Below are positions 2,863 to 52,544 of a stretch of 64,000 nucleotides of DNA, one piece after another (within the stretch, counting starts at the first letter, position 1; each line of letters begins with the position of its first letter). Made by a program: the position numbers and the translations under genes. Source of the DNA: Salinibacter sp. 10B (GTDB lineage: Bacteria > Bacteroidota > Rhodothermia > Rhodothermales > Salinibacteraceae); contig NZ_MQWC01000004.1 in NCBI RefSeq assembly GCF_002954405.1, positions 3,226,668-3,290,667 on the forward strand, written 5' to 3'. A model generated the notes under the pieces. It had not been told where the DNA came from, made no database searches, and saw nothing but the letters and a program-made list of their open reading frames with translations.

Positions 2863-3285
2863 ATGTTCTCGTCTCGTCGGTACGTCTCTGCTCTTGTGGG
2901 GCTTCTCGTGCTTCTGAGCAGTGGATCGGTTCAGGCCCAGTCCTCCCCTCACGTGAAGACGGTGAGCGACACCGTAGAGTTTGCGTCCACCGGCGTTCTT
3001 GAGGTCGAGAACCAAAAGGGACGCATTTCGGTGACGACGTGGGGACAGGACGCCGTCGGATACGAGGTCCGCATCGATGACTACACGTCAACGATCCGTA
3101 ATACCGAATCCTGCTGCAGACTTCAGGGAGGAGGTACGGCGACGCAAAAGCCTCTCGTATCGTCGGCACCGGCAAGGAGTGGCCCCAGAAGCGTCGTTGG
3201 ATTGTGGCGTTACGAGTTTAACCGCAGGGGCGACAACCGTGGCACTGGGTTTTCGTTTCCTGAAAGGTCAATGTCCTCTGTGTAG
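2863..3285 (+). pseudogene. Exported-protein gene truncated by a MITE-like insertion
   Basis: The ATG at 2863 opens a clear signal peptide (MFSSRRYVSALVGLL, then a cleavage site near VQAQ/SS), followed by a beta-rich stretch (VEFASTGVLEVENQKGRISVTTWG) like the start of the repetitive beta-fold of DUF4097-type secreted proteins; that family match is a guess. About 79 codons in, at 3099-3101, the frame enters the repeat element described below and runs to a TAG at 3285 inside it. Removing the element and one TAA duplicate would let the frame continue to a TGA near 3441, giving a protein of only about 108 aa, so the original gene was probably also shortened at its 3' end. Confidence 0.7.
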
Positions 3286-3355
3286 CGTCGTTGGACTCCA
3301 ACGACGCTACGGACGCCTGTTTCTTACCGGAATAGAGCTCCCGGAGTTGGTATAA
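3099..3355 (+). repeat. MITE-like element, copy A (251 bp plus TAA target duplication)
   Basis: Element 3102-3352 is flanked by TAA at 3099-3101 and 3353-3355. Its ends form imperfect terminal inverted repeats: the left end starts TACCGAATCCTG and the reverse complement of the right end starts TACCAACTCCGG. It encodes no transposase. A 29-bp near-perfect palindrome sits at 3282-3310 (arms GTAGCGTCGTTGGA and its complement). Copies B and C have the same ends and palindrome but different internal lengths. This copy interrupts the exported-protein gene starting at 2863. Confidence 0.88.
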
Positions 3356-3539
3356 TGGAGCGAAAGCACCGATCGGAAGCTGTTCGGTGGATGGATGTTC
3401 AGCCGAGACACAGTGGGCGACGGTCAAAATAGCGCTCAAATGAGGCTGGCCCCCCAGCGGGGTTGTCGGGCGAGTGCAGACGCCATTTTGAGTGAGATTT
3501 GCAAAATGCAGGCCACAGACCGTCTGCCAAAACAGCTTC

Positions 3540-39000: not shown

Positions 39001-40359
39001 ATGGCGCACGATGTAGCGACGGATTGGACGCTGAGTTCGTGGCGGGCGAAGGAGGCCCTACAACAGCCCACCTACTCGGACGAAGCGGCATTGGACGAGG
39101 CTCTTGATCACGTGTCTAGTCTCCCGCCCCTCGTCACCTCCTGGGAGGTGGAGAATTTGAAAGAGGAGTTGGCGCGCGCCGCTCACGGGGAGCGCTTTCT
39201 GTTACAGGGAGGAGAATGTGCGGAGTCCTTTCAGGGGTGCACGGCCGACGTCATTACGAGCCGGCTCAAGATCCTGATGCAGATGAGTCTCGTGCTCACC
39301 TACGGGCTCAATACCCGCATCGTCCGTGTGGGCCGCTTTGCCGGGCAGTACGCCAAGCCCCGCTCGTCGGATACCGAAACGCGCAACGGCACGACACTGC
39401 CGAGCTACCGGGGCGATATCGTCAACAGCGTCGAGTTTACGGCGGAGGCCCGGGAGCCCGATCCCCAGCGCATGGTGGAGGCCTACGCGAGTTCGTCCCT
39501 TACGCTCAACCTCGTCCGGGCGCTCGTTAAAGGCGGCTTTGCCGACCTCCGGCATCCGGAGTACTGGGACCTCGACTTCATGCAGCACTCGCCCCTGGCG
39601 GAGGAGTACCACGCCATGGTGGATGCGATTGAGGATACGCTCGATTTCGTGGAGGCGGTGACAAACGAGAAACTCGACACCGTGGAGAGCGTGACCTTCT
39701 ACACGAGTCACGAGGCCTTGCTGTTGCCCTACGAGGAAGCACTCTCCCGCACCGTGCCCCACAAGGAGGGAGTGTACAACCTTGGGACTCATTTGCCCTG
39801 GGTTGGCAAGCGGACCAACCAACCCGAGAACGCACACGTCGAGTACGCTCGTGGCATCGAAAACCCGATTGGGTTAAAAGTGGGACCGGACATGACTCCG
39901 TCCACGCTCAAGCGACTCGTGCGTACCCTTGACCCGGAAGACGAACCCGGCAAGCTTACGCTCATCACCCGTTTTGGGAACGACAAAATCGCCGATCGGC
40001 TCCCCGGCCTCATCAACGCGGTCCGCGATACGGGGCAGACGGTCCTCTGGATCTGCGACCCGATGCACGGCAACACCGAGAAGACCGACGATGGTACGAA
40101 AACGCGCCGGTTCGACAATATTCTCGGCGAGCTGGAGCAGGCCCTCGACATCCACGCGGCCGAAGACTCATACCTGGGCGGCGTGCACTTCGAGCTTACC
40201 GGTGAGAATGTGACCGAATGCATCGGGGGGGCCCGCGGGCTCAGCGAAGCCGACCTCGGGCAGGCCTATGAATCCCCGGTCGATCCGCGGCTCAACTACG
40301 AGCAGTCCTTGGAGATGGCATTCAGCATCGTACGCAAGTATCGCGAACTCCATCGGTAA
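39001..40359 (+). CDS. aroG: 3-deoxy-7-phosphoheptulonate (DAHP) synthase, class II
   Basis: 452 aa. Condenses phosphoenolpyruvate and erythrose-4-phosphate, the first step of the shikimate pathway, in the cytoplasm. Class II signatures: LLQGGECAESF near residue 75, RVGRFAGQYAKPRS near 105 (phosphoenolpyruvate-binding Arg-Lys), NLGTHLPWVGKRT, NPIGLKVGPDMTP, ITRFGNDKIADRLPGLI, WICDPMHGNTE and GGVHFELTGENVTECIGG. Plant-type length, no fused domain. Its TAA stop codon at 40357-40359 is also the left target duplication of MITE copy B, so the protein is untouched. Downstream it converges on the M42 gene. Confidence 0.96.
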   Translation: MAHDVATDWTLSSWRAKEALQQPTYSDEAALDEALDHVSSLPPLVTSWEVENLKEELARAAHGERFLLQGGECAESFQGCTADVITSRLKILMQMSLVLTYGLNTRIVRVGRFAGQYAKPRSSDTETRNGTTLPSYRGDIVNSVEFTAEAREPDPQRMVEAYASSSLTLNLVRALVKGGFADLRHPEYWDLDFMQHSPLAEEYHAMVDAIEDTLDFVEAVTNEKLDTVESVTFYTSHEALLLPYEEALSRTVPHKEGVYNLGTHLPWVGKRTNQPENAHVEYARGIENPIGLKVGPDMTPSTLKRLVRTLDPEDEPGKLTLITRFGNDKIADRLPGLINAVRDTGQTVLWICDPMHGNTEKTDDGTKTRRFDNILGELEQALDIHAAEDSYLGGVHFELTGENVTECIGGARGLSEADLGQAYESPVDPRLNYEQSLEMAFSIVRKYRELHR

Positions 40360-40525
40360 TACCGAATTCTGTTGCAGACTTCAGGTAGGAGGTACGGCGG
40401 TGCAATACGCAAAAGCTTCTCGGATCGTCGGCACCGTCAAGGAGGACACTAGTAGCGCCGCTGGACTCCAACGGCGCTACGGACGCCTGCGTCCTACCGG
40501 AATAGAGCTCCCGGAGTTGGTATAA
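40357..40525 (+). repeat. MITE-like element, copy B (163 bp plus TAA target duplication)
   Basis: Element 40360-40522 with TAA at 40357-40359 (the stop of the DAHP synthase gene) and 40523-40525. Same ends as copy A (TACCGAATTCTG, GGAGTTGGTA) but an internal segment of about 90 bp is missing. The core palindrome is at 40452-40480; relative to copy A, T-A has changed to C-G, keeping the pair. Confidence 0.9.
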
Positions 40526-40529
40526 GGTT

Positions 40530-40586
40530 GTACGTGTGTATGTATGGAGGGAGGTACGTCCATTGCCTTCATACGTACACACGTAC
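40530..40586. repeat. Long inverted repeat between convergent genes
   Basis: Arms GTACGTGTGTATGTATG (40530-40546) and CATACGTACACACGTAC (40570-40586) pair at 16 of 17 positions around a 23-nt loop, just after MITE copy B. No T-run, so a factor-dependent or bidirectional terminator, or a regulatory hairpin, is possible. Confidence 0.75.
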
Positions 40587-52315: not shown

Positions 52316-52544
52316 TCATACCAACTCCGGGTGCTCTCTATTCCGGTAGGAAGCAGGCGTCCGTAGCGCCGTTGGACTCCAACGACGCTACACAGGTGGC
52401 CTTTCCCTCGTCTGACGGAGACTCCCCAATCCTACAGTCCAACGCTGTTTCTGGTGCCCTCCTTGACGGCGCCGACGACACGAGAGGGGGGCGTATTGTA
52501 CCGCCGGACCTCCTGTCTGAAGTCTGCAGCAGGATTCGGTATCA
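52316..52544 (-). repeat. MITE-like element, copy C (223 bp plus TNA target duplication)
   Basis: Element 52319-52541, opposite orientation to A and B, flanked by TCA at 52316-52318 and 52542-52544 (TGA in the element's own direction). Same ends (GATTCGGTA, TACCAACTCCGG). The core palindrome lies at 52363-52391 with one G-T pair where A has T-A and B has C-G. Confidence 0.9.

Follow-up and report, generated by a model that had tools for sequence, protein, structure and literature searches.

Mobile DNA is known to follow a few strategies for reaching safe sites (attTn7, terminators and palindromes), and in the IS1031 group of the IS5 family insertion generates a 3-bp TNA duplication, which is also the duplication of F1, the family of elements described here. 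Among prokaryotic MITEs, MITEAba12, with its IS-derived ends, resembles F1 in being short and non-coding, in having inverted ends and a target duplication, and in occurring in many copies; in the available part of its description the duplication is 9 bp (PMC6382973), whereas the elements studied here show a 3-bp TNA duplication and an excess at stop codons. In Coxiella burnetii, most QMITE2 elements, of 150-190 bp, are located between genes or in 3' untranslated regions, and they differ from the present ones in that their duplications are 7-11 nt long and variable in sequence, as opposed to TNA. Copies of QMITE1 overlap the ends of several genes, one of them by 3 bp only, with the difference that the overlaps are mostly of 26-50 bp and that stop-codon enrichment is not described in the accessible portions of those reports (PMC5896051; PMC10969869). 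No report of MITEs or IS concentrated on stop codons was found among titles and abstract beginnings in the open-licence literature. As far as these partial texts go, single overlaps of MITEs with gene ends are already published (QMITE1), whereas for a concentration on stop codons no published report was found. A TNA target that is a stop codon on one strand, and whose duplication regenerates the stop, would be a very simple rule for harmless landing, and such a rule would predict where other TNA-target elements accumulate. Moreover, the 44 insertion sites collected below are a ready data set for telling target choice from survival.

In the window, i.e., the whole stretch of 64,000 nucleotides that was analyzed, positions 40357-40525 consist of a TAA, a 163-bp MITE-like element (copy B) and a second TAA. 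The genome used for comparison, G008, is the closest of 12 same-genus genomes by its DAHP synthase protein (94% identical). The features of the locus are the following:

39001..40359, + strand: gene for class-II DAHP synthase, with the target site at its stop codon (ORF of 452 aa, with orthologues)
40357..40359, + strand: left target duplicate TAA, the in-frame stop codon (from the ORF and the empty site in G008)
40360..40522, + strand: copy B, 163-bp MITE-like element with ends TACCGAATTC / TACCAACTCC, the inverted repeats being short and imperfect
40523..40525, + strand: right target duplicate TAA (from the sequence and the comparison with G008)
40530..40586, + strand: hairpin 3' of the DAHP synthase gene, older than the insertion (from folding and the G008 sequence)

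The product of the ORF is a class-II DAHP synthase (PF01474, E 3.9e-195). The left junction of copy B reads ..CGCGAACTCCATCGG TAA TACCGAATTC.. and the right one ..GGAGTTGGTA TAA GGTTGTACG.., while the empty site in G008 reads ..CGCGAACTCCATCGG TAA GGTTGTACGTGTGTACGTATGGAGG.., with GGTTGTACGTGTGTACGTATGGAGG as the counterpart of the right flank of copy B; the two genomes differ at this site by 166 bp (163 bp plus one TAA). At the level of sequence, this comparison demonstrates that copy B inserted, with duplication of the TAA, into a stop codon that was already present. The original prediction that the left TAA duplicate is the stop codon of the DAHP synthase gene, that the element duplicates a TNA target and that the insertion left the protein unchanged is borne out by the ORF, which ends on the TAA at 40357-40359, by the TAA on both sides of copy B against a single one in G008, and by the identical C-terminus and TAA at the empty site. 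The C-terminus of the enzyme lies at the same place, or at most 2 residues later, in all 12 other genus members. Among named organisms, relatives by this enzyme are 'Bacteroidetes bacterium SW_9_63_38' (87%), Salinivenus iranica (83%) and Salinibacter altiplanensis (83%), and the sequence following the stop in these is that found in the same-genus genomes G009, G012 and G007; the genome is therefore assigned to the Salinibacter group.

Copy B gave 74 matches across the genome, often partial ones, and sorting them by hand yielded 23 copies of F1. The family has the features of a MITE: many dispersed copies devoid of a coding gene, a size of 159-320 bp where both ends are seen, and terminal inverted repeats, though short and imperfect. 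The ends read TACCRAMTYC and adjoin TNA; TNA followed by this motif has 22 exact matches in the genome (5 outside F1) versus none for the reversed control. Target duplication is also observed, together with the empty site described for copy B: the two ends carry the same TNA (TAA, TTA, TCA or TGA) in 11 of the 23 copies, while TNA is seen at one end only in 8 and at neither in 4. The exact right-end pattern of copy B was found in no stretch of a collection of genome contigs, in which its own genome is possibly absent. Two further copies lie in the window, and copy B itself holds a palindrome:

3099..3355, + strand: copy A, same family as copy B, longer form, TAA/TAA duplication, not at an in-frame stop
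52316..52544, - strand: copy C, same family as copy B, flanked by TCA/TCA (+ strand), no stop codon at the site
40452..40480, + strand: 29-bp near-perfect palindrome GTAGCG..CGCTAC inside copy B, the site of extra modules in longer copies

A first assignment by eye of the TAA of copy A as a stop codon was rejected, as the frame check gave a 6-codon open stretch only. To the right of copy A (window ~3375-3450) lies another repeat (GCCGAGACACAGTGGGCGACGGTCAAAATAGCGCTCAAATGAG..), which matches many places in G008 and G009. In longer F1 copies, modules sit in the centre of the 29-bp palindrome, and by eye the inner module of L008 is inverted. The palindrome GTAGCGYCGTTGGASTCCAACGRCGCTAC occurs alone (L032-L045) as well as being the inner-module site of longer copies (L008, L010, L014), and among the relatives searched it has copies in G008, G009, G011 and G012. 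This placement may resemble the stem-loop replacement of the IS1272 / IS1182 type, as far as the available text describes it, whereas the mobilisation of copy B is unlike that process, with its plain TNA duplication (PMC5678879). In addition, the inner module of copy 22 (L030, C4:1908211-1908661) harbours another element, whose ends are of the GAGACTGTTTTGA type, and L010, L012 and L030 have in common an outer extension, CGTATCTAGCAGATGAGGGTA, beside one end, possibly an alternative, longer end.

Four other groups have TACC..GGTA-type ends; in this genome (G000) F3 counts 11 copies, F5 7, F4 6 and F2 2, the latter assembled from end motifs. Searching for the end motif with 1 mismatch gave 118 matches, and 40 stretches were fetched around new places among the matches listed. 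One F5 copy, L328 (C4:811440), abuts the TAG stop of an ABC transporter gene (GGTA followed by CTA), a triplet outside the TNA rule. A transposase remnant near a partial F3 element (L277, C4:2200161-2200448) was judged to be a different insertion.

Stop codons were located with our own codon-usage gene finder, which called ~78-80% as coding and is distinct from a curated annotation; its training sample of 364 kb was made up of the window and 20 random stretches. This sample holds 2935 non-coding TNA sites and 163 in-frame TAA or TGA stops. The share of stops is 8.4% among TAA/TTA sites and 3.8% among TGA/TCA sites. In F1, 19 of the 23 copies have a TNA junction, and 7 of these lie exactly at a gene stop, although 8 of the 19 junctions rest on a TNA at one end only, with an unlike far triplet in 5 of these, including two counted stops (#10, #12). 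The seven genes encode the DAHP synthase, GcvP, an FtsX-like permease, a DUF4296 protein, a PDZ protein (DegP-like by eye), a LuxR-type regulator and a protein lacking a Pfam match in the piece searched (an oxidoreductase by eye). Outside F1, stops are the site of 3 of 11 F3 copies (LptF/LptG, the PTE family and one protein without a Pfam match), 2 of 6 F4 copies (TM2, PNP_UDP_1), 2 of the 6 F5 copies with TNA (Smr, a glycosyltransferase) and one of the two F2 copies (a cold-shock protein), or 8/25 when pooled. Over all five groups, 15 of 44 TNA junctions are at gene stops, 12/27 in the TAA class and 3/17 in the TGA class, and a Pfam domain was identified in 13 of these 15 genes. The 44 leave out four F1 copies with no TNA at the visible junction (#5, #16, #19, #22), the F5 copy at the TAG stop, the copies of G008, two single end motifs inside called genes (1509440, 3799086) and two end-motif matches that, judged from their positions and the called genes, do not coincide with a stop (3054633, C5:255131); the end-motif match 3810715, outside F1, was counted in F2.

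Against 2.9 stops expected from non-coding TNA sites, the 15 observed give P 6e-8, and stops are about 5 times as frequent among insertion sites as among non-coding TNA sites; all P values treat copies as independent, and two of the loci (L262 and L337) form one nested complex. For F1 alone, 7/19 compares with 1.1 expected (P 6e-5), and the remaining groups pooled give P 2e-4, even though each is weak by itself (F3 P 0.04, F4 0.06, F5 0.06, F2 0.16). If half the sites taken as non-coding in fact belonged to genes that were missed, the expectation would rise to 5.4 (P 1.4e-4), or to 6.5 when motif weights are added (P 1e-3). The stop-codon excess in this genome is not chance. The comparison of genomic copies with chance that the original prediction called for hence turned out in its favour, both in F1 and over all groups.

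We consider it likely that copy B is a MITE moved in trans, that insertions at stops survive with the protein unchanged, and that the five groups display the same pattern. Copy B would be a non-autonomous DNA transposon mobilised by a transposase acting in trans, which would make a 3-bp staggered cut at TNA and thereby flank the element with two TNA triplets. Since each TNA triplet reads as a stop, TAA or TGA, on one of its strands, every stop of these two kinds is an admissible target; where the target is the gene's own stop, the near duplicate would stay as the stop codon, the protein would be the same and the insertion would survive. Roughly one third of the judged junctions in the five MITE-like groups would have arisen in this manner. 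We infer a DDE-type transposase working in trans, and one enzyme for all five groups. Searches of PF01609 (G000, G008) and PF13586 (four genomes), with 1.5-kb flanks, found no partner transposase with these ends, and hence no IS5-type transposase with F1 ends; single end-like motifs near some transposase matches formed no pair.

Survival alone could also produce such a pattern, if elements inserted at random TNA, copies in genes or promoters were lost, and the stop were the first harmless TNA after a gene. This explanation is a plausible one that we hold somewhat less probable than not. It agrees with the finding that all 23 F1 copies lie outside called genes. Moreover, a null that admits only sites bordered on a side by a gene 3' end gives P 4e-6, and when the gap must also be at most 400 bp the expected share of stops rises to 0.20 for the TAA class and 0.08 for the TGA class, with 6.8/44 stops expected. 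Nevertheless, the 15 stops are still in excess under this restricted null (P 1.5e-3). Within 100 bp of a gene 3' end, moreover, stops account for 15 of 26 copies versus 6.5 expected (P 3e-4; 5.6e-4 motif-weighted), these copies being sorted by hand by distance, which outside F1 was taken from match ends and not from element ends. In addition, 4 of the 23 F1 copies are flanked on both sides by the starts of divergent genes, and promoter regions are therefore not simply emptied. We think that the excess is the joint product of the loss of in-gene insertions and a local target preference.

If the transposition machinery favoured the surroundings of stops over and above the TNA triplet, whether by a more extended rule of sequence or shape or by some property of the termination of translation or transcription, the stop preference within 3' regions and the pooled excess in groups other than F1 would both be accounted for. 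Insertion sites do have an extended core, S-TNA-G, with G/C at -1 in 26/29 and at +1 in 26/33 (background 0.49 and 0.51), and G occupies -1 in 12 of the 15 stop copies compared with 0.33 in stop TNA sites generally. This core explains little of the excess, because motif weights, taken from non-stop copies, lift the expected stops only from 2.9 to 3.5 (P 7e-7). Folding points the same way, F1 targets having an energy of -22.0 over an 83-nt span versus -22.6 at stop sites in general; the 60 nt downstream of the F1 targets are more stable than non-coding sites, folding at -18.4 versus -13.4 for these and -15.4 for stop sites, which is not decisive. Moreover, none of the six places with F3-type copies in G008 is at a stop, which speaks against the main reading as well. 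In view of these results, a preference of this kind is doubtful, and it seems unlikely that the transposase actively selects stop codons, via context wider than TNA or via translation or transcription termination, as a built-in rule for safe landing. As a loose control, given that its insertion rule is not established and that some copies lie inside such elements, the 29-bp palindrome repeat abuts a stop in 0/15 cases.

The element might instead have been kept for giving the gene a useful transcript end, a reading that touches on the original prediction of a new 3' end with a hairpin supplied by copy B. Copy B does fold moderately, and better than shuffles (z -2.7). The only terminator-like match is, in contrast, a weak one of 5 pairs across its left junction, and a stronger hairpin (40530-40586, z -5.2) was already present 3' of the gene. 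This hairpin, long and with ~22 pairs, lies between converging genes, and a counterpart with changed sequence is found at the same place in G008, right after the stop (read there by eye, not folded). Therefore, it was not created by copy B, which shifted it 166 bp away from the stop, and the predicted new hairpin end is mostly wrong, as a like hairpin follows the stop in the element-less G008. An Rfam search returned miRNA-precursor matches only, far under their cut-offs. Furthermore, 4 F1 copies at stops have their left end towards the gene and 3 have their right end there, and retention for a transcript end is thus very unlikely.

Lastly, 12 of the 15 stop genes (11 plus the DAHP synthase; L326, L335 and L339 were left out) were compared with relatives. 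The C-terminus aligns to the last residue with G008 in the DAHP synthase and in five of the eleven (GcvP, the FtsX-like permease, the PDZ protease, the LuxR-type regulator and LptF/LptG), whereas the other six have some tail residues unaligned. For the nine TAA-insertion genes with a match, three of which are only 58-73% identical, the G008 stop is TAA in 3, TGA in 5 and TAG in 1; in 6/9 it is thus TGA or TAG, and therefore stops switched in one lineage. Both TGA-insertion genes compared have TGA in G008. That the element made the stop, by inserting in or near a gene so that its flanking TAA became a new protein end, could draw on these switched triplets and unaligned tails, but is hardly credible, given that it is contradicted for copy B by the same TAA at the empty site, that the final residue is shared with G008 in six genes, and that an in-frame TAA or TGA target is already a stop if TNA is the duplicated target. 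When conserved flanks of 16 copies were searched for in G008 and G009, leaving aside matches of the copy A flank with its other repeat, the gcvP copy alone had a match across the junction. There, the element is absent from both genomes, and the stop is TAG in G008, where the alignment extends no more than 16 bases beyond the junction, and TAA in G009.
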